Of a stretch of 25,866 nt of DNA, positions 3,732 through 15,261 are shown piece after piece (within the stretch, counting starts at the first letter, position 1; every line of letters begins with the position of its first letter). A model generated the notes under the pieces. That model saw only the letters and a list, made by a program, of their open reading frames with translations, had not been told where the DNA came from and made no database searches. The stretch lies in IMG/VR virus record IMGVR_UViG_3300031787_000736, positions 1 to 25,866 of that record; one strand, 5' to 3'. The translations under genes and the position numbers were made by a program. The DNA comes from a virus.

Positions 3732-5227
3732 AGCTCGCAGACCGCTGGAAACTTGTAAGCAAAGCCTTCAGCCCCAAGGCCGTCAGCTACGATGCCGCGC
3801 GTCCCTCGATTCAGCGCCGGATGCCCGCCAACGCGCGGGCCGTGGACTCGCACATTGATGTCACGGGCTTCGACCGCGAGCGCCTCATGCGCTTGTCCCG
3901 CTACCTTTACAACAACGTGCCGCTGGTGCGCGGCATGATTACCGAAAAAGCCCGCTACGTTGCCGGGGGCGGTGGCATCCGCCCGCAGGCGCGCAGCGGC
4001 GACGAACAATGGGACGCCGCCGCCGAGGCGTTTTTCGCGCAGTGGAGCCGCGTGGCCGACATTCAAGGGCGCTACTCATGGCGCGAAATGGTGCGCTTGG
4101 CCTCGATTGCCGTTGACCGCGACGGCGAAATCTTTTTCCGCACCGCGCAGCAAAGCACGGGATACCCCGCGCTTGAAATGATTCTGGCTCACAGGATCGC
4201 GGACGATCCAAACGTCATCTACAAGCCAAACGGCATCGGGCGCGCCACGGGCCAGCGCGTAATTGACGGCGTGGTGGTCAATGCGGACATGAGGCCGATC
4301 TTTTATCGCCGCGTTTTGGGCGATGATGGAGACGTTCCGCAGAGCCTTGATTTTGAAGACATCCCGGCCACGCAGATGATCCATCTCGGAGAAGCCAGCG
4401 CGGGCGACGAATTGCGTTTTGTCACGCCGATGGCCCCCTCGATCAACCACTTGCGCGACCTGCAAGATGCAATCTCGTTTGAAAAGATGGCGCTGAAGAT
4501 CAACAGCTACGTTGCGCTGGCGATCAAATCGAGCAACCCGCAGGGCGCGGATTTCTTTGGCGAGTCGCAGTCCGTGGCAAACCCTGACGGCACTTCCGAG
4601 ATGACCGTGGAGAGCCTCGGAACTACGGGCGGGGCCATCCCGCGCCTCGGCATGGGCGAGGATCTGGTCGCTTGGTCAAGTGACCGCCCGAAACAATCTT
4701 TCATGGACTTCAGCAATGCGCTGATCCGCGAGGTGTGCATCAACTTGGGTGTGCCTTTTGAATTTGTGGTGCGTCCCGCAGATGCCGGGGGCGCGGCGCT
4801 TCGTTCGGTGCTGGTGCGCGCGCAGCGCACGTTTGAGCATAGGCAGGCGCTTCTCATTGACCGCTTTTGCAATCGCGTTTGGGCACACGTTATCACGACG
4901 GCCATGTCGCGCGGTCTCATCCCGCAAAACGACAACTGGTGGCGCGTGGATTGGCAGACGCCCGCCGCCGCGAGCGTGGACTATGGCCGCGAGGCGCAGG
5001 CCAATCTCAACGATGTGCGCGCGGGGCTCCGCACCTACGCAGAGGATTACGCGGAGCGCGGGCGCGAGTGGAAAGACGAACTGCGCCAGCGCGCTACCGA
5101 GGCGAAGTATTTGGCCGAACTGGCTGCGGAGTTTGAAATCAGCCCCGACAGCATTGCCACTTTTAACCCCAATCCCGCGCCGCCTGTAGCGCAGCCTGCG
5201 CCGACCGCACCACCGCAGCAAGATTGA
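3728..5227 (+). CDS. Portal protein (lambda gpB family)
   Basis: The 499-aa protein is the dodecameric portal through which DNA enters and leaves the head. The family pattern is clear: a Tyr/Arg-rich N-terminus, LSRYLYNNVPLVRGMI near residue 55, a WREMVRLASIAVDRDGEIF segment, and a C-terminal half with FDFSNALIREV-like and GVPFEFVVRP motifs and the late DNWWRVDWQTPAAASVDYGREAQ segment typical of lambda-type portals. The extreme C-terminus is Pro/Ala-rich. Length is near that of gpB (533 aa). The start is ATGA-coupled to the preceding gene. Its stop TGA lies within the next TTGACA element. Confidence 0.93.
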   Translation: MKLADRWKLVSKAFSPKAVSYDAARPSIQRRMPANARAVDSHIDVTGFDRERLMRLSRYLYNNVPLVRGMITEKARYVAGGGGIRPQARSGDEQWDAAAEAFFAQWSRVADIQGRYSWREMVRLASIAVDRDGEIFFRTAQQSTGYPALEMILAHRIADDPNVIYKPNGIGRATGQRVIDGVVVNADMRPIFYRRVLGDDGDVPQSLDFEDIPATQMIHLGEASAGDELRFVTPMAPSINHLRDLQDAISFEKMALKINSYVALAIKSSNPQGADFFGESQSVANPDGTSEMTVESLGTTGGAIPRLGMGEDLVAWSSDRPKQSFMDFSNALIREVCINLGVPFEFVVRPADAGGAALRSVLVRAQRTFEHRQALLIDRFCNRVWAHVITTAMSRGLIPQNDNWWRVDWQTPAAASVDYGREAQANLNDVRAGLRTYAEDYAERGREWKDELRQRATEAKYLAELAAEFEISPDSIATFNPNPAPPVAQPAPTAPPQQD

Positions 5228-5243: not shown

Positions 5244-6338
5244 ATGAAGCCCGCCGCCTCCCGCTGGTATGCAATTCAATCGACCGAAAACGGCAGCGCC
5301 GAAATCTCCCTTTTTGATGAGATCGGTTTTGGGGGAACAAGCGCGAAGGAATTTATTGCGGAGCTTAAAAAACTCAGCGGCCAACATATCCACCTCCGAA
5401 TCAATAGTGTCGGAGGAAGTGTTGTCGAAGGCACCGCGATCTACAACGCATTACGTCGGCACAAGGGCGGCTTAACTGTTCACGTCGAAGCACTTGCGGC
5501 CAGTATGGCCTCGGTGGTGGCAATGGCCGGGGAAGAGGTTGCCATCTCGGACAACGCGCTGCTCATGATCCACAACCCCTGGTCGATGAGCATGGGCGAT
5601 GCGGACGATCTTCGCAAAGAAGCCGACATTCTCGACAAGCTCAAAGCCACGCTGGTCAATGCTTACAAGCGCAAGACGGGCATGGATTCCGAGCAGATCG
5701 CCGCGCTGATGGACGACGAGACATGGCTTGGCGCAGAAGAAGCCGTGGCAATGGGTTTTGCCGATTACGTCGAAGACGGGCTGGAAGCCGCCGCCTCTAT
5801 CACGCCCGCCGAAGCGCGCAGCCGCTTTGACAAATTTTCCAACTCTATGCGTAAGCCCGCGAAAAACCGCAAAGCCGAGGAGGCTGTTCCCGAAGTCGTG
5901 GAACCGTCCGTCGAAGCGCCCGTGACCACGGACGCCGTTGACATCTCCGAGGAAGTTAACATGAACGCTGAACTTCAAGCGCAGGTTGACGAACTTCAAG
6001 CCAAGCTGGCCGAAGTCGAAGCCGCCAAAGTTGACGCCGAAGCCGTCGCCGCGCAAAGCGCCGAAGACGTTGCCAAGGAAATCGAAACCCTGCGGGCCGA
6101 AGTCGAGCGCCTCGCTTCCGAGTCCGCCGCCAAAGACGAGGAGATCAACGCGCTTCGCGCTGCCTCCAAAAGTGCTGGCGAACAGGCTGCTGCAATCGTG
6201 GCTGGCATCGGCGTTGATCCGTCCTTGGCACAGCCGGAACTGACCCCGGCGCAGAAGTTTGCCTCCCTCACTGGCCCCGAAGCCACCACCTATTTCCGCG
6301 CTCACAAGAGCGAAATCATCAAATCCCTCAACTCCTAA
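5244..6338 (+). CDS. ClpP/S49-like head maturation protease with C-terminal scaffold domain
   Basis: This 364-aa protein should process the prohead. Residues 1-175 form a ClpP-like fold: INSVGGSVVEGTAIYNAL, then the nucleophile motif AASMAS with Ser87, then the catalytic-type His110 in MIHNPWS. The linker at 200-239 is rich in Glu, Pro and Val. Residues 240-315 are a strong Ala/Glu/Lys coiled coil, as expected of a scaffold, and the C-terminus carries a PEL/FASL-type segment. The layout matches lambda gpC, whose 3' end encodes the Nu3 scaffold in the same frame. It lies between the portal and major capsid genes. Confidence 0.93.
   Translation: MKPAASRWYAIQSTENGSAEISLFDEIGFGGTSAKEFIAELKKLSGQHIHLRINSVGGSVVEGTAIYNALRRHKGGLTVHVEALAASMASVVAMAGEEVAISDNALLMIHNPWSMSMGDADDLRKEADILDKLKATLVNAYKRKTGMDSEQIAALMDDETWLGAEEAVAMGFADYVEDGLEAAASITPAEARSRFDKFSNSMRKPAKNRKAEEAVPEVVEPSVEAPVTTDAVDISEEVNMNAELQAQVDELQAKLAEVEAAKVDAEAVAAQSAEDVAKEIETLRAEVERLASESAAKDEEINALRAASKSAGEQAAAIVAGIGVDPSLAQPELTPAQKFASLTGPEATTYFRAHKSEIIKSLNS
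5961..6338 (+). CDS. Nested in-frame scaffold protein (Nu3-like), internal start
   Basis: ATG 5961 is codon 240 of the protease gene and opens a 125-aa coiled-coil product beginning MNAELQAQVDELQAKL. It has its own GAGGAAG ribosome site at about 6 nt. It also has an exact TTGACA at 5938-5943, 17 nt before the ATG, the same arrangement seen before separate genes. In lambda and relatives the scaffold is made from an internal start in the protease gene; here both the coiled coil and the start signals agree with that. A second TTGACA-ATG pair in frame lies at 5827/5847 and could make a longer 164-aa form. Confidence 0.65.
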   Translation: MNAELQAQVDELQAKLAEVEAAKVDAEAVAAQSAEDVAKEIETLRAEVERLASESAAKDEEINALRAASKSAGEQAAAIVAGIGVDPSLAQPELTPAQKFASLTGPEATTYFRAHKSEIIKSLNS

Positions 6339-7329: not shown

Positions 7330-9093
7330 ATGAGAGAAAAAATATCCCTGTGCGTTATCACGCACAATGAACCGAAGCGGCTGGATCGCTGCCTTACCTT
7401 GTTCAAACCCGCCGTGGACGAAATATGCGTAGTCCACGCGCATGGCAACACGCCGCCCGACTTGGAAATCACCCGCGTCTGCGAGCGCCACGGGGCCAAG
7501 ATGGGTGTTTATGCCAACGACCCGAAGAACGATTGGCCCCATGTGGACGATTTTGCCGCAGCCCGCCAGGCGTCCTTTGACCTTGCCAGCAATGATTGGT
7601 GCTTGTGGGTCGATGCCGACGATGTTCCGGGCGACAATTTTGCACCCGCCCTGCACGAACTACTGGAGCAGCACGGCAAAGATTTCGACGGCTTCTGCCT
7701 TTACCACAATGTCGCGGGCAGGCAGATCGCGCACAATGCCCGCGAGCGCCTTGTGAGGCGCAGCAAGGGCCGCTGGCGTGGCCGCATCCACGAAAACTTT
7801 TTGCCGCTGGAGGGCGACGGCAGAACCTACGCCCGGTGCGATGCACCCGTGGTCATTCACCTTCCCGACGAGGAGGCCAAGCAGGGCAACGAGCGCAACC
7901 TCCGCATCCTTGACTCTATCCCCGAAGCCGAGCGCACGGTGCGCGATCTTTACCACATCCAAGGCGAATTGATGGGCCAAGGCCGCAAAGACGAGGCGCT
8001 GACCCTCGGCCAACAGCTTGCCCAACGCGAAGACCTTCAACCCGTGGAGCGTTATGAGGTGCTGCTTAACGTGGCCGAAATGGTGCGCCCGCCCGTCGTG
8101 GAGCGCCCAAGCCCCGAATATGCCGCCATGTGCGCGGCCCTGCACGCGGCGTATGCTCTTATGCCTAACCGCCGGGAAGCCCTAGCCCTGCTTGGTGCGC
8201 TTCATCTCGATCTCTTTGATCTCGTCCGAGCCGAAGCCTACCTGCGACAGATGATCGCCACGCCGCGCCCGGCAGAATTGCCGTGGACGCACAGAGACGC
8301 GCTTTACTCTTGGGGAGGCGAACAGCTTTGGACGCAGCTTCTACGCATCACGGGGCGCATCGAACAGGCCGACAAGATTGAGCGCGACCGCTTGGCCCAA
8401 TGCGTCAAGGACGGCAAAATCACAATCAGCATCGTCCACCCCACACGCGGACGCCCCGAGCAAGCCGCCCGCGTCCGCAAGGCATGGCTGGATTCTGCCG
8501 CTGACGCCTCGCGCATCGAATACATCTTTGCCTTCAGCCAGGATGACCAAGAAACGGGCGGGCTTCTTCACCGCTTCCGCCACGCCCTTTCACCCGCCGG
8601 AAAGCTCGACCAAGTGGGCGGCACGCTGGTTGAAAACTACAATGCAGGCGTCCGCGCCAGCACCGGGCACATTATCCTGACCGTGCAGGACGATCTGCAT
8701 TGTCCGCTCCATTGGGACAAGCAGATTGAGGAGGCGCTGGCCGACAAGCTCGAGCAGCCCGCCGCCCTGCAAATACGCGACGGCTACCGCACCGACGATT
8801 TGCTCATCACCTTCTGCGTCACGCGGCCCACGCTGGATCTGTTCGGATTCGATGGCGGCATCGTCTGCCCCGAATACCACGGCGTTTTCTGCGACAACGA
8901 CTACACCCGCCTTGTGCAAAAACACGGCATCCTCGTCCCGTCCGACATTACCTTCCGTCACGAGCATCCCGCATGGAATCCCGCCGTGCCGATGGACGCC
9001 ACCTACGCCATCGAGAATAGCGAGCCGGGCTATGCCTACGGCAACGAAGTCTACCGCCGCCGCTGGCCCGCTGACACCGCTCCCAGCGCATGA
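7330..9093 (+). CDS. Two-domain family 2 glycosyltransferase
   Basis: The 587-aa protein contains two GT-A-type domains. Domain 1 (about 1-190) opens MREKISLCVITHN, has the metal-binding DADD at 95-98, and carries an RRSKGRWRGRIHENF segment typical of GT2 enzymes. The middle (190-350) looks TPR-like and helical. Domain 2 (about 362-560) restarts with ITISIVHPTRGRPEQ and has a VQDD at 452-455 in place of the usual DxD. Reading frames extending upstream into the capsid gene are rejected: ATG 7330 lies at the natural N-terminus and directly after the TTGACA hairpin. It probably transfers sugar to a virion protein or host surface; the acceptor is unknown. The stop overlaps the next gene (ATGA). 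Confidence 0.9.
   Translation: MREKISLCVITHNEPKRLDRCLTLFKPAVDEICVVHAHGNTPPDLEITRVCERHGAKMGVYANDPKNDWPHVDDFAAARQASFDLASNDWCLWVDADDVPGDNFAPALHELLEQHGKDFDGFCLYHNVAGRQIAHNARERLVRRSKGRWRGRIHENFLPLEGDGRTYARCDAPVVIHLPDEEAKQGNERNLRILDSIPEAERTVRDLYHIQGELMGQGRKDEALTLGQQLAQREDLQPVERYEVLLNVAEMVRPPVVERPSPEYAAMCAALHAAYALMPNRREALALLGALHLDLFDLVRAEAYLRQMIATPRPAELPWTHRDALYSWGGEQLWTQLLRITGRIEQADKIERDRLAQCVKDGKITISIVHPTRGRPEQAARVRKAWLDSAADASRIEYIFAFSQDDQETGGLLHRFRHALSPAGKLDQVGGTLVENYNAGVRASTGHIILTVQDDLHCPLHWDKQIEEALADKLEQPAALQIRDGYRTDDLLITFCVTRPTLDLFGFDGGIVCPEYHGVFCDNDYTRLVQKHGILVPSDITFRHEHPAWNPAVPMDATYAIENSEPGYAYGNEVYRRRWPADTAPSA
9071..9089 (+). promoter_or_regulatory. CTGACACC variant of the start element
   Basis: CTGACA (9071-9076) lies inside the end of the glycosyltransferase gene. 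It is followed by CGCT-CCC-AGCG (9078-9088), a 4-bp hairpin, and ATG 9090, 13 nt after the hexamer. It differs from the consensus only at the first base. Confidence 0.45.
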
Positions 9094-10048: not shown

Positions 10049-10399
10049 ATGGCAGCGACAATCGTAGGACTCACCAGCATCACCTTCGGCGGCTCGGCGG
10101 AAACAGTCGCCGTTTTCACTTCTTTTTCTCAAACCACAGATTCGGACAAGACCGTAGTGGTTGACCACGATGGCGACCATATCGCGGTGGCTTACCACGG
10201 CCTCAAAAGTGTGGCCAGCATGAGCGGCTTTTTGAAGTCCACCATCCCAACTGTCGGAGCTTCCATCAGCTTGGCAAATTCAATCAGCACTATGGGCGGG
10301 ATTAGCGGCGGCACGTTCTACATCGACTCCGTTGCCGTCAACAAAGCCCCCAACGATTTTCATCAAGTCACCGTCTCGGCGACAAATCACAACTTCTAA
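10049..10399 (+). CDS. Putative small tail tube or structural protein
   Basis: The 116-aa protein is beta-rich with Ser/Thr/Gly-heavy strands (ATIVGLTSITFGGSAETVAVFTSFSQ, TVVVDHDGDHIAVAYHG, GTFYIDSVAVNK). It lies between tail-terminator and chaperone genes, where the major tail protein is expected in siphoviruses, and has its own TTGACA element, consistent with a distinct expression level. It is small for a tube protein, so a decoration or minor tail role is possible. No clear family motif. Confidence 0.6.
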   Translation: MAATIVGLTSITFGGSAETVAVFTSFSQTTDSDKTVVVDHDGDHIAVAYHGLKSVASMSGFLKSTIPTVGASISLANSISTMGGISGGTFYIDSVAVNKAPNDFHQVTVSATNHNF

Positions 10400-10439: not shown

Positions 10440-10847
10440 ATGCAAGGCCCGGTCGGACACTACGCTACCACTGATACCAAAGTCGCCGCGACGCTCGCCA
10501 CCGTGGGCGTTCGCATTCGCCAGCAAGATCCCATCTCGCGCGTCGTGCAAAAAGGCCGAGAAACGTGGCATTATTGGTTTGAGCTGGACGGCGCCAACGG
10601 CGTGCCAACAGCAAAAATTGTGCAGGCCATTATTGAGGGCCAAGAAGCCTGCGAAAGCCTTCGCTCAAAGTTGCCAGACTTGCCCGGGGCGCGCGCGTCA
10701 TTGTTTAACCGCGAAAACCTCCTCGACTTGGGCCACAACAAATGTCGCCGGCTTGTTATGGTCAACTTGCCCGGAGGCGGCATTATGCTGGCCGACGAAA
10801 AACTTTCCCCCGAGACCAAGCGCCAAGTGGCGCAGATGGTGCTTTAG
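10440..10847 (+). CDS. Hypothetical protein
   Basis: The 135-aa protein has no membrane segment or recognised motif. Its N-terminal half is mixed alpha-beta (HYATTDTKVAATLATVG, WHYWFELDG) and its C-terminal half is helical and ends PETKRQVAQMVL. The 40-nt gap upstream contains a small GGGG-CAATGA-CCCC hairpin (10406-10419) and AT-rich TATTAT just before the ATG, but no ribosome site. It ends 2 nt before the GTG of the next gene. Confidence 0.65.
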   Translation: MQGPVGHYATTDTKVAATLATVGVRIRQQDPISRVVQKGRETWHYWFELDGANGVPTAKIVQAIIEGQEACESLRSKLPDLPGARASLFNRENLLDLGHNKCRRLVMVNLPGGGIMLADEKLSPETKRQVAQMVL

Positions 10848-10849
10848 CC

Positions 10850-11713
10850 GTGGCCTCGGTTCGCAGCTTGCGGCTTTTTCCTTGGGGCTGCGTGCCGCGC
10901 TTCCCGCCAGAAAGCACTCTTGGCGGCCTTACCGAAGACGGAGAGCCGACCGGCGAGAGGTTGATCTTTGATACCGGAAGCGGCACCTATTACCCGTTTG
11001 AGATGCCCATCAGCCACGCCGTGCAAATGTGGTGGCGTGTGCGACATTGGAAACTTTCTTTTGAGTATTATTACTTCCGAACCCTGACCACCGAGGACCC
11101 CGGAAGCTACCAAGAGACGCCACAGGAGGCCATTACCCTCACCACGGAGGACAGCCCCCCTAGCGACGCTTTTTCTGCCCCCTATCTTTTCGCCGAGGAT
11201 GAAATGGACTTGGCTTGCCGTGGAGGCTTTGGCGACTACGAAACGGCGGCAGTGCAGTTGCAATGGACAAAAGAGATAACGCGCAATTTTGTTATCACCA
11301 CCCCTCCAGCACGGTCCGGGTCGTTTCAGGCTCCGTTGGTTGCCGCTTTTTCTGTCAGCACCCAGCAACAAGGATTCCCGCCACCGTTTTGTTTTACGGC
11401 CTCTTCTTCTGAATTCAACGGAGGTCGAATTGCCGGAAGCATTGTCCACGCCTGCTTCGAGCTGTCCATCGGCGGCCACAGCACCCTGCGCGCGCCTGGG
11501 GCGGAGCCGACCGCCACGGCGCAGCTCAAGCTGGGCTTTTTGGGCAAGACTTACAGCGCGCAAATGTATTGCCAGCCAGACGCAAACATCGACGAACAAA
11601 TCAGCAGCGTGATTATGGAGCCGATAGAATTTTGGCCATACAACCCCGGCGACGGCGGGGGACCCATATACGATAAAACCACTGGCAGCCAACTCCGCCC
11701 CTTCTCCTCTTAA
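10850..11713 (+). CDS. Hypothetical probable virion protein
   Basis: The 287-aa protein is best started at GTG 10850 (MASVRSLRLFPWGCVPRF), immediately after the preceding TAG; an open frame reaches back to 10742 but overlaps the previous gene. The sequence is rich in aromatic residues and short strands (YYPFEMPISHAVQMWW, WKLSFEYYYFRTL) and acidic loops, suggesting a beta-rich structural protein. No recognised family. The middle of the gene is less GC-rich than its flanks. It sits among the tail genes before the assembly chaperones. Confidence 0.7.
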   Translation: MASVRSLRLFPWGCVPRFPPESTLGGLTEDGEPTGERLIFDTGSGTYYPFEMPISHAVQMWWRVRHWKLSFEYYYFRTLTTEDPGSYQETPQEAITLTTEDSPPSDAFSAPYLFAEDEMDLACRGGFGDYETAAVQLQWTKEITRNFVITTPPARSGSFQAPLVAAFSVSTQQQGFPPPFCFTASSSEFNGGRIAGSIVHACFELSIGGHSTLRAPGAEPTATAQLKLGFLGKTYSAQMYCQPDANIDEQISSVIMEPIEFWPYNPGDGGGPIYDKTTGSQLRPFSS

Positions 11714-11733
11714 AATCTCTAACTGTCGGCCAT

Positions 11734-11755
11734 TTGACACCTCTGGGCGGTCGAT
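11734..11755 (+). promoter_or_regulatory. TTGACACC start-proximal element
   Basis: TTGACA at 11734-11739 precedes ATG 11756 by 16 nt in the 42-nt gap between genes. Only weak pairing (ACC with GGT) is visible before the start, and there is no Shine-Dalgarno sequence. Confidence 0.55.
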
Positions 11756-12160
11756 ATGCAAGATATTGACCCGGAAAAGCGGACGGGCCTGCTTGAGCAG
11801 GCGGCATTAGGCGCAAACCAAAGCATTAACGGTCTCGATTTGCGGCCCGTTACTTCGGCAACGTGGAGCCTTCTTTCGCGGCTAAAAAACAATTTTATCA
11901 CTGGCGAACAAGACGGTGACTACGCTTTTGCGGTTTATTCGTTTGTCTATTTGCACTCACTTCCGATCTCGGACATTCGCAAGCGCATTGCGACTATTGA
12001 CGATCTGCGCGGCGACATTTACGAGTGGATGGATTCGCGCCCTGTTGAGGATCTGTTTTCTTTTGTGCCTTGGATCACGGCGCAAATGGAGCAAGTCGCG
12101 GCTACCATCACGCAGGCAGCGCCAAGCCCAGCAACCTCCGACAACGCCCCAAAAGTTTAG
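11756..12160 (+). CDS. Tail assembly chaperone, short form (gpG-like)
   Basis: The 134-aa helical protein lies two genes before the tape measure, where siphoviruses encode the chaperone that coats the tape measure during tail assembly. It has a compact helical body (TSATWSLLSRLKNNFITGEQDGDYAFAVYSFVYLHSL, DIRKRIATIDDLRGDIYEWM) and a Pro/Ala/Ser-rich tail. The slippery heptamer CCCAAAA sits three codons before its TAG stop, and a -1 reading frame continues past it, as in lambda G and GT. Sequence similarity to gpG itself is not visible; the call rests on architecture. Confidence 0.75.
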   Translation: MQDIDPEKRTGLLEQAALGANQSINGLDLRPVTSATWSLLSRLKNNFITGEQDGDYAFAVYSFVYLHSLPISDIRKRIATIDDLRGDIYEWMDSRPVEDLFSFVPWITAQMEQVAATITQAAPSPATSDNAPKV

Positions 12161-12203
12161 CGGCCCGCCCGGCGTGGCAGCTTTGCCTTGCCGCACGGGT
12201 CGC
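12148..12203 (+). promoter_or_regulatory. -1 programmed frameshift site with downstream stem
   Basis: CCCAAAA (12148-12154) matches X XXY YYZ exactly in the frame of the upstream gene (zero-frame codons CCA AAA at 12149-12154). After 5 nt, GCGGCCCG (12160-12167) can pair with CGGGTCGC (12196-12203) with one G-U pair, giving a stimulatory stem at the usual distance. The zero-frame stop TAG is at 12158-12160. Confidence 0.8.
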
Positions 12204-12381
12204 CAAATACGGAATCAGTCTGGAGGACGCCATTTGGCATTTGCCGATGGCCGCTCTAAACCAGCTTATCATCTACGACGAACTAGCGAGCGGTCGCTCG
12301 CCGCGCTGGATAGATAGCGGCGAGGAGGGGGCTAAAGACATAGAGGCGTTGTTGGCCGACGCGCTGACACCAAGCCTCTGA
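12154..12381 (+). CDS. Tail assembly chaperone extension (T-like), expressed by -1 frameshift
   Basis: The -1 frame encodes 75 residues after the slip (SLAARPAWQLCLAARVAKYG onward, ending ALTPSL), giving a G-T-like fusion of about 208 aa from the ATG at 11756. The body is helical and includes WHLPMAALNQLIIYDELAS, the kind of segment found in tail chaperone extensions that bind the tube subunit. No convincing independent start with a ribosome site exists. The end carries a CTGACACC element for the next gene. Confidence 0.75.
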   Translation, partial: SLAARPAWQLCLAARVAKYGISLEDAIWHLPMAALNQLIIYDELASGRSPRWIDSGEEGAKDIEALLADALTPSL

Positions 12382-12382: not shown

Positions 12383-13141
12383 ATGGATTCCGTAGTGCAG
12401 GCCGACTATCGCGCCGTGAGCCGATTTCATGCGGCCATGCGTGAGCTTGCCTCAATCAGCGGCAAGGATTTCCAACAAGTCATGCGCCACGAAGTCGGCG
12501 CTATTCTAAACGCTTCCGTTCGTGGGACGCGCAAGGCCACGACTAAAAGCATCCAAAGCAACCATGATAAACAGCCGGGCTCCCGATATGCCTTTGACTA
12601 TGCCGGGCCAGAGTCTCGCAGCGGCAAACAATACAGCGCCGCCGATGTTTTGCGCTTGCGCCAAAGAGCAGCAGAGCGCCGATCTAAAGCCAAGAACGGC
12701 AAGATGGTCTATTATTTTTCCAAAAGCAACGAGCCCAAGGCTTACCCAGCGTGGGTATGGCGTCAGATCCAAGATCGTCGCGCCAAAAGCCTAAAGGCCC
12801 GCATGGGAGCGCGCGGCCTCGCCGCCTCCATGTGGACGAAGATCGGCAGCCAGCTTGGCATTGACGTAAAAGCGCCAGCCTATGTCCGCAACGCCAAGCA
12901 CCACAAAAAAGGCGGCATGGAGGAAATGGTGCAAGCCTACCAAAAGGGCAGGGGCAAAAGCTATGAGATCGGGTTTGTAAACGCCCTGACGCACTTGAAC
13001 CAATGGAACCGCGTCGGCGTGGTGTTTCGCAAGGCGCTAAATGCAAGGGCCAACTTCTTCAGCCAAGCGGTCAAACTACAAGCTAAGGGAACCATAAAGC
13101 GCGTCATGGACAGGTATCCCGGCATGGCAAGCGTCTCTTGA
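12383..13141 (+). CDS. Hypothetical basic tail protein
   Basis: The 252-aa protein is strongly basic, with long Lys/Arg-rich helices (RLRQRAAERRSKAKNGK, RRAKSLKARMGARGLA, AKHHKKGGMEEM). It lies between the tail chaperone and tape measure genes, so a tail-tip or tape-measure-associated role is likely. Basic proteins containing an early RHEVGAILNAS-like helix are common in phage tail modules, but I do not recognise a named family. Its TGA stop is inside the next TTGACA element. Confidence 0.7.
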   Translation: MDSVVQADYRAVSRFHAAMRELASISGKDFQQVMRHEVGAILNASVRGTRKATTKSIQSNHDKQPGSRYAFDYAGPESRSGKQYSAADVLRLRQRAAERRSKAKNGKMVYYFSKSNEPKAYPAWVWRQIQDRRAKSLKARMGARGLAASMWTKIGSQLGIDVKAPAYVRNAKHHKKGGMEEMVQAYQKGRGKSYEIGFVNALTHLNQWNRVGVVFRKALNARANFFSQAVKLQAKGTIKRVMDRYPGMASVS

Positions 13142-13161: not shown

Positions 13162-15261
13162 ATGGACGGCGCATTAAAATTCTTTAGCAGCCTAAACACG
13201 GCGGGCTTTGAGTCTGGCGCGAAGCGGATGCAGCAAAGCGCGGACACCGTTTCCGCTGGCGTGAAAAATGCCTTTGCCGGGGTTGCGCGCGCCGTGGTTG
13301 CCATCGGCGGCGCGTTTTTGGCCGTGCGAGCGTCAGCCGACGCCTTCAACAAGGCACTCGATCTTGGCGGAAAGCTAAACGACCTGTCGGCGCGCACGGG
13401 CGAGTCTGCGGGCAATCTTGCTATTCTCCAACGCGCCTTTGAAAACGCGGGATTGGGGGCAGATCAAGTAGGGTCAATGCTCGATAGAATGTCTCGCTAC
13501 ATGGTGGAAAGCACCAAGGCTGGCAGCGAGCAGCAAAAGACCTTGGCTGCGCTTGGCCTCTCATTTGATTCTTTGCAGGGCAAAACACCCACCCAGCAAC
13601 TGCAAGCCCTTGCCTCTGCTGTGTCTTCTGTCGAAGACCCGGCAATTAGAACCAAGGTTGCTATGGAAATTTTCGGGCGAAGCGGCGGCGAGCTTATGCC
13701 GCTGCTTCGGGCTATGGGCTCCGAGTTGGACATAGCGCGCCAGCAACTTGGCTCTCTGCCGTCCGTTATGGACAAGTCTGCCGAAGCCTTCGACAAACTT
13801 GGCGACAGCCTTGCTGCTATTGGCAACAAGGGAACAGAGCTTGCCGCAGGCATTTTGGAAAAGCTCGCCCCGGCGCTTGCAAGCGTGGCCGAGCGCGTTG
13901 CTGCTATTGATGCAACGGGGCTTGGCAAAGCGCTTGGAGAATATGCCGTGCAAACGGCCAAGTGGGTTGCCGAAACGCTAAAAGTCAGCGAGGCCATCAC
14001 GGCAGTAAAAACGGCCATCGCGGGGATTGCGGTTGGGGAAGTCGGCAAGGGCTTTGAATTGCTATTCACCACGGCCAAGATCGCTGGACTCAATGCCGTC
14101 AATGAAGTGGTTGCGGCGGCCATGGCTGCTGTTGAATCGGTAGGCGCCGCCCTGCAATCACTATTTGGCTCTGACTCAACAACGATGGCTTTCATCAATG
14201 GCTCTTTTGAAATGCTCGGAGCAAAAATTGCATCCAACATTTCCAAGCATTTAGCCGACGTTCTGGAGCAAATTCCATTTATGGGCGCGGCGGCAGAAGC
14301 AATACGCGCAACGCAAAAAGAAGCGGAGCAGGCCGTCCAAGACATCAGCAACATCATGTATTATGAGGCTGATAATTTGAAAAAAGAATGGGGCGGGATC
14401 ATGGCCGAAATGCCAAAGCGATTTGCCGAATCCTACGAACAAAACGCAAGATCGCCCCTTTTTGATCTCACTAACGAACTTGCCAAACAAAAAGAGCTTT
14501 CCGCAGAACTCGCCAGCAATATCCGAGCGGCGGGCATATCGGCTGGAGATTTTTCCAATGCGCTAAACAACTCGCCACTGAGGGGCGGAAGCCTCATGGA
14601 TCGCCTTACCGGGGGCGATGCCGACTCGCCATTTCCCGACACTACGCGCGGCGGCGGGGCAAAAATACCAATCAAAATTGATCCTGCGGCCCTTGCATCG
14701 TCAGAAAAAGAGGGCGGTGGAACCTCTGCGAAGAGCCAGACCACATCCGCCCTTGACGCCCTTCGCAAAGCCGCCGAAACCGATGCGCGGGCACGCGCCG
14801 ACCTTTTCCGTATCGAGGCCGAGATGAGCCGCCGCACCTCGCGCGTGCCAGAACTCATGGACAAGGGACAGTTTGGCTCCGCCGCCACCACCGAACTCCG
14901 CGCCGAGCGCAACGCCGAAAGGCGCGCGCAGGATATAATGTCCCGCCGCTCCGCGACCGATTTACTCTTTGGCGAAGACAGCCCGCTTAAAAACATGGGC
15001 GATCTTGAGCAACAATTCCGCCGGCAAAACCCGTTTGGCAGGCGGGAAGACTTTGACCGCTTCGTGCGCGACCAATCTAAAACCCAAGCCGAACGTGTGC
15101 GCGAATCTACCCAGGGCGGCGGAACCGGCGGGAAAGACGCGAAACCGCAAGCCGACCCGATGAGCGGCATGGCAAGTGACATTGCCCAGATTAAAGAGGT
15201 TCTTATCCGCGCCGACGGCATCCACGACAGATTGCCAATCCGAGCACTTTCTGCCGCATAA
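13162..15261 (+). CDS. Tape measure protein
   Basis: The 699-aa protein sets tail length and is ejected during infection. Pattern: an amphipathic N-terminus, a hydrophobic stretch at about residues 39-57 (AGVARAVVAIGGAFLAV), long Ala/Gln-rich helical repeats, and a segment LNDLSARTGESAGNLAILQRAF typical of tape measures. There are further hydrophobic stretches around residues 285-325 and a low-complexity Gly/Lys linker near 515-530. The C-terminal third is charged and rich in Arg (AERRAQDIMSRRS). It is the longest gene of the tail module apart from the fibre and follows the frameshifted chaperones, as expected. It is short compared with lambda gpH (853 aa), implying a shorter tail. Confidence 0.92.
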   Translation: MDGALKFFSSLNTAGFESGAKRMQQSADTVSAGVKNAFAGVARAVVAIGGAFLAVRASADAFNKALDLGGKLNDLSARTGESAGNLAILQRAFENAGLGADQVGSMLDRMSRYMVESTKAGSEQQKTLAALGLSFDSLQGKTPTQQLQALASAVSSVEDPAIRTKVAMEIFGRSGGELMPLLRAMGSELDIARQQLGSLPSVMDKSAEAFDKLGDSLAAIGNKGTELAAGILEKLAPALASVAERVAAIDATGLGKALGEYAVQTAKWVAETLKVSEAITAVKTAIAGIAVGEVGKGFELLFTTAKIAGLNAVNEVVAAAMAAVESVGAALQSLFGSDSTTMAFINGSFEMLGAKIASNISKHLADVLEQIPFMGAAAEAIRATQKEAEQAVQDISNIMYYEADNLKKEWGGIMAEMPKRFAESYEQNARSPLFDLTNELAKQKELSAELASNIRAAGISAGDFSNALNNSPLRGGSLMDRLTGGDADSPFPDTTRGGGAKIPIKIDPAALASSEKEGGGTSAKSQTTSALDALRKAAETDARARADLFRIEAEMSRRTSRVPELMDKGQFGSAATTELRAERNAERRAQDIMSRRSATDLLFGEDSPLKNMGDLEQQFRRQNPFGRREDFDRFVRDQSKTQAERVRESTQGGGTGGKDAKPQADPMSGMASDIAQIKEVLIRADGIHDRLPIRALSAA

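Follow-up and report, generated by a model that had tools for sequence, protein, structure and literature searches.

A probable G/GT-type tail assembly chaperone gene with a predicted programmed −1 frameshift at CCCAAAA in a viral contig

Do two overlapping ORFs in the tail module of a viral contig form a G/GT-type tail assembly chaperone gene, read both as a short protein and, through a programmed −1 frameshift, as a longer fusion? The contig in question is IMG/VR record IMGVR_UViG_3300031787_000736, analyzed here as one stretch of 25,866 bases that we refer to as the window. An initial annotation, made from the letters of the window, had proposed a programmed −1 frameshift at CCCAAAA with a lambda G/GT-like arrangement. 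Our analysis supports this proposal through an invariant heptamer, the exclusion in several relatives of an independent start for the full second domain and a conserved hairpin, and we put the probability that the locus is a G/GT-type tail assembly chaperone gene with a programmed −1 frameshift, giving short and fusion products, at about 0.9. The features discussed are collected in Table 1.

Table 1. Features of the putative chaperone locus, in window coordinates
Feature	Position	Strand	Basis or detail
G-like ORF, zero frame; predicted tail assembly chaperone short form, 134 aa	11756–12160	+	ATG 11756, TAG 12158–12160
Slippery heptamer C_CCA_AAA	12148–12154	+	CCA AAA in the zero frame, CCC AAA in the −1 frame; invariant in 32/32 sequences
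Zero-frame stop TAG, one sense codon past the heptamer	12158–12160	+	Same offset in all relatives
Putative stimulatory RNA stem-loop, 5 nt past the heptamer	12160–12203	+	Folding energy
T-like −1-frame ORF, 77 codons	12148–12381	+	Coding pattern in the −1 frame
Conserved gene between the chaperone pair and the tape measure gene, function unassigned	12383–13141	+	Synteny in relatives
Tail length tape measure protein gene	13162–15261	+	PHROGs tape measure families, E down to 1.7e-15

Anatomy and conservation of the slip site

In the window, the 3′ end of the G-like ORF overlaps a second ORF that lies in the −1 frame, as in other pairs of the G/GT type. The last codons of the G-like ORF read GCC CCA AAA GTT TAG, with CCA as the third codon before the stop, which bears out the initial claim that the heptamer is in the correct phase three codons before the stop. 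Read in the −1 frame, the junction becomes CCC AAA AGT TTA GCG and so on; this frame had been said to stay open to 12381, and its TGA indeed lies at 12379–12381. The fusion predicted from a shift at this point has 208 aa (133 + 75).

CCCAAAA occurs seven times in the window against five copies expected by chance. The count alone is not unusual; it is the phase, position and conservation that are non-random. We collected relatives by using each protein, and alignments of relatives, as queries, which gave 31 contigs bearing a G-like gene, or 32 sequences with the window, 29 of them distinct. These relatives share ancestry and so are not independent samples, and their first-frame proteins are as little as 39% identical. 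In every one of the 32 sequences (29 distinct), CCCAAAA keeps its phase, and a single sense codon stands between it and the stop; the conservation check that had been suggested for the heptamer thus finds it kept without exception. The identity of the zero-frame stop varies across the relatives, with TAA, TAG and TGA all present. Within a non-redundant set of 21 sequences, each of the 30 columns 5′ of the heptamer varies and none of the seven heptamer columns does. Repeated searches with wider profiles returned no heptamer-less relatives and no more distant ones.

The same set of 21 sequences reveals a constraint just past the heptamer. The −1-frame codon after PKS (or PKN) is only ever CTA, TTA, CTG or ATA, and each is followed by A or G, the letter that creates the zero-frame stop. 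CTC, CTT and TTG are common leucine codons elsewhere in both ORFs, yet they are absent from this position. This restriction to codons that make a zero-frame stop means that the zero frame is kept terminating here and the −1 frame is kept open.

Identity and surroundings of the proteins

Neither the G-like nor the T-like protein is matched by any PHROGs or Pfam family, whether searched singly or family-wide, in keeping with the earlier remark that the proteins have no visible sequence similarity to G or T. A profile search of PDB sequences returned no match to the G-like protein, tblastn searches of 50,697 phage records with this protein and with the 12383 gene product returned none for either, and the product of 12383–13141 has no credible PHROG or Pfam match. 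We modeled the G-like protein with AlphaFold2 (pLDDT 80.6, pTM 0.71) and compared the model with known structures using VIA-align. The HK97 tail chaperone gp13 (PDB 2OB9) came second in the list (Z 3.8, 86 residues, rmsd 4.1), after an unrelated HMG box with Z 4.3 and a much worse rmsd. HK97 gp13 is 6% identical to the G-like protein, with a Z too low to prove common descent, and was missed by the profile search of PDB sequences with the G-like protein. The weak resemblance of the modeled fold to the HK97 chaperone is suggestive only. Foldseek gave no convincing match of the model to the PDB, the second match in a viral structure library was an unnamed 206-aa protein, and the T-like domain has no fold match.

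Gene order adds a second line of evidence. The head and tail module of the window encodes a GpA-type terminase, a lambda-family portal, a ClpP-like protease, a capsid protein and a tape measure protein, and the overlapping pair sits upstream in the tail part, with one gene between it and the tape measure gene, in an order kept in the relatives. The ORFs at 10049–10399 and 10440–10847 are candidates for tail tube proteins. A tail chaperone identity of the pair is supported by this gene order and weakly by the fold similarity.

Verrucomicrobia phage P8625 (NC_029047), the best match to the window portal among cultured phages (30.6%), offers a further comparison. Its gp18 (L094 7918–8538, annotated as hypothetical) lies directly upstream of the tape measure gene and has 206 aa, against 208 for our predicted fusion. 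In hhalign, gp18 matches the G-like profile along 60 columns (E 1.5e-4, probability 51%), and the T-like domain has no significant match to the C-terminal half of gp18, where the likeness is by eye only. Unlike the pair in the window, gp18 is one uninterrupted ORF with no stop between its parts and no visible frameshift, and on this comparison it seems to be the chaperone pair fused in a single ORF. The genes before the tape measure gene of Akkermansia phage Moulinsart were also considered as relatives and gave no match. Moulinsart is among the terminase matches, and a verrucomicrobial host appears likely from such sequence matches. Profile searches of genome contigs with the T-like profile and the terminase found no host prophage.

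Could the frameshift be real and the proteins be something other than tail chaperones? The silence of the sequence families and the weakness of the fold matches speak for this reading. We nonetheless consider it improbable, as the relatives also have the pair in the tail module ahead of the tape measure gene, as its fold weakly resembles the HK97 tail chaperone and its short and long forms have typical sizes, and as P8625 gp18 adjoins its own tape measure gene.

Several further observations concern the DNA around the pair and other loci in the window. Just 5′ of the G-like gene (window 11714–11758), most relatives (L063–L093) share the leader TTGACA(C/G)..CGG(T/G)CGATATG. Everything upstream of this leader differs: about a third of the relatives have a terminator-like GGGCGGGGC-TTCGG-CTCCGCCC hairpin with a T run, others have the end of a different gene, and the ORF at 10742–11713 is variable or missing. 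The interval between 10440–10847 and the chaperone gene has the look of a hot spot for insertions. A glycosyl transferase family 2 gene (7330–9093; Pfam E 3.9e-12), whose product might modify the virion, separates the capsid gene from the head-tail genes.

The leader's TTGACA belongs to a wider pattern. Counted over the window and relatives L002–L092, whose shared ancestry overstates independence, 82 of 157 plus-strand copies of YTGACA fall in the four-position zone 13–16 nt 5′ of an ATG, against 0.7 expected, and the reverse complement is found there 0 times. For only 15 copies does the TGA double as the stop codon of a listed ORF upstream. The pattern is already visible in the window by itself, with sites at 5224, 9071, 10030, 11734, 12364, 13138, 16444 and 22901, among others. 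TGACA lies within 40 nt 5′ of 99 of 181 ORFs, about half, and an SD-like sequence of about 10%. No clear −10-like element was seen near YTGACA, and in neither P8625 nor Moulinsart is the motif enriched. SD sequences are scarce in some Verrucomicrobia (PMC10783764). YTGACA is possibly a non-SD translation start signal, and it could also be a repeated regulatory site.

At 5961 (and 5847) in the ClpP-like protease gene (5244–6338), TTGACA stands 17 and 14 nt before in-frame internal ATGs, and the C-terminal part of the protease is coiled-coil-like; by analogy with lambda C/Nu3, an internally started scaffold protein within the protease gene is possible. In the terminase gene, CTGACA at 641 stands 20 nt 5′ of an in-frame ATG, and the terminase may start at ATG 667 rather than 622.

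The second frame and the RNA hairpin

Pairwise differences in the −1 frame are 0.31, 0.21 and 0.50 at codon positions 1, 2 and 3, a pattern that points to protein selection on this frame. Such a frame might instead be expressed as a separate gene, initiated internally or through coupling to termination upstream, with no fusion made. The window itself would allow this, as its −1 frame stays open over the 99 nt 5′ of the heptamer, with a TTG at 12070. In six relatives, however, the −1 frame is closed shortly before the heptamer, 3 nt 5′ of it in L073, L079 and L080 and 24 nt 5′ of it in L085, L088 and L089. None of the six has a start codon between this closure and the conserved domain, and the next possible start lies inside the domain. 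Because the frame is closed and no start codon follows, a full-length second domain is possible in these six relatives only as a fusion. A separate gene is contradicted for the full-length domain in L007–L009 and L016–L018. Moreover, the −1 peptide is conserved from the heptamer onward and not before it, with PK invariant and then S/N and L/I, and a separate gene would leave both the invariant heptamer and the hairpin unexplained. We regard this alternative as very unlikely.

The hairpin had been noted as a GC stem 5 nt downstream of the heptamer, and the stem-loop at this place folds at −31.9 kcal/mol in the window (z −3.3), with 0 of 200 shuffles as stable. Averaged over 21 relatives, the MFE of 48-nt windows falls from −19.6 at the heptamer to −26.4 at offset +12; outside the hairpin it is about −10 to −15. 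When synonymous codons are shuffled within the second ORF, z is below 0 in 21/21 relatives, with a mean of −2.1. In every relative the hairpin stands out as a sharp peak of stability. Its position is conserved, and its stability goes beyond the needs of protein and codon usage.

Two clades differ by one codon inside the stem, and each folds the hairpin in its own way. RNAalifold recovers the hairpin clade by clade; from one alignment of all relatives, in which a 3–6 nt indel inside the stem separates the clades, it recovers none. Compensatory changes number two pairs per clade, which is not clearly above shuffles in pair-shuffle controls that are themselves weak. It is stability, not covariation, on which the hairpin rests. 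An Rfam scan of the window gave no match, and the relatives' alignment contains no conserved SD-like element upstream of the slip site.

The A run at the junction also raises transcriptional slippage, a process known from other recoding cases (reviewed in PMC5009743), by which mixed mRNAs would be made. The run consists of only four A residues (five in one relative), and slippage of the polymerase would not select for CCC, for the phase or for the hairpin. Transcriptional slippage normally needs long runs of A or T, and we give it hardly any credence here. Coincidence, a decayed gene or an assembly error, for which the chance-level frequency of CCCAAAA might speak, is refuted by the comparative data, as 31 further contigs repeat the arrangement, giving 29 distinct sequences with the window, and both frames are under selection.

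Proposed mechanism and relation to known systems

The lambda G/GT heptamer is GGGAAAG, whereas the heptamer here is CCCAAAA. The window further differs from lambda in the stop fixed one codon past the site, in the strong downstream hairpin, in the extra gene between the pair and the tape measure gene and in the lack of recognizable sequence similarity between the proteins. Both have a pair of overlapping ORFs ahead of the tape measure gene (reviewed in PMC5009743), and in both, by prediction for the window, −1 tandem slippage on an X_XXY_YYZ heptamer close to the 3′ end of the first ORF produces a longer fusion. The related heptamer C_CCA_AAG is reported to be very prone to shifting in E. coli, and phage tail genes are known with shifts of −1, −2 or +1 (PMC5009743).

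For a programmed −1 frameshift at this locus, we propose the following course. Most ribosomes would read the zero frame to its stop and make the 134-aa protein. A minority would have CCA AAA in their P and A sites while the hairpin hinders them, and in these a tandem slip back by one base would let both tRNAs re-pair with CCC AAA. The shifted ribosomes would bypass the TAG and end at 12379, giving the fusion with its extra helical domain. The short lambda product binds the tape measure protein, and the longer one has the tail shaft subunit as an additional partner (PMC5009743). By analogy, the 134-aa protein here may form a coat on the tape measure protein, and the rare fusion may recruit the tail tube subunit. 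We infer the slippage itself, its frequency and the chaperone roles of both products.

The pair is probably a G/GT-type arrangement in a new probable chaperone family that lies beyond sequence recognition. A broader scenario is conceivable, and we hold it as doubtful: the family would have no common descent with lambda G/T and HK97 gp13 and would use the same −1 design in phages that are mostly SD-less, with the hairpin, and perhaps the stop fixed one codon on, acting as stimulators without an upstream SD-like element, and P8625 would represent a switch between frameshifted and fused forms.

The analysis names a probable tail chaperone, with the frameshift that would set its two forms, in a phage group where databases recognize neither protein. 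It also supplies a comparative set of 29 sequences in which the slip site never varies and the hairpin keeps its position, a well-defined test case for −1 slippage in probably SD-poor hosts. In uncultured phages, such a frameshift is usable as a sequence-independent marker of tail chaperone genes.
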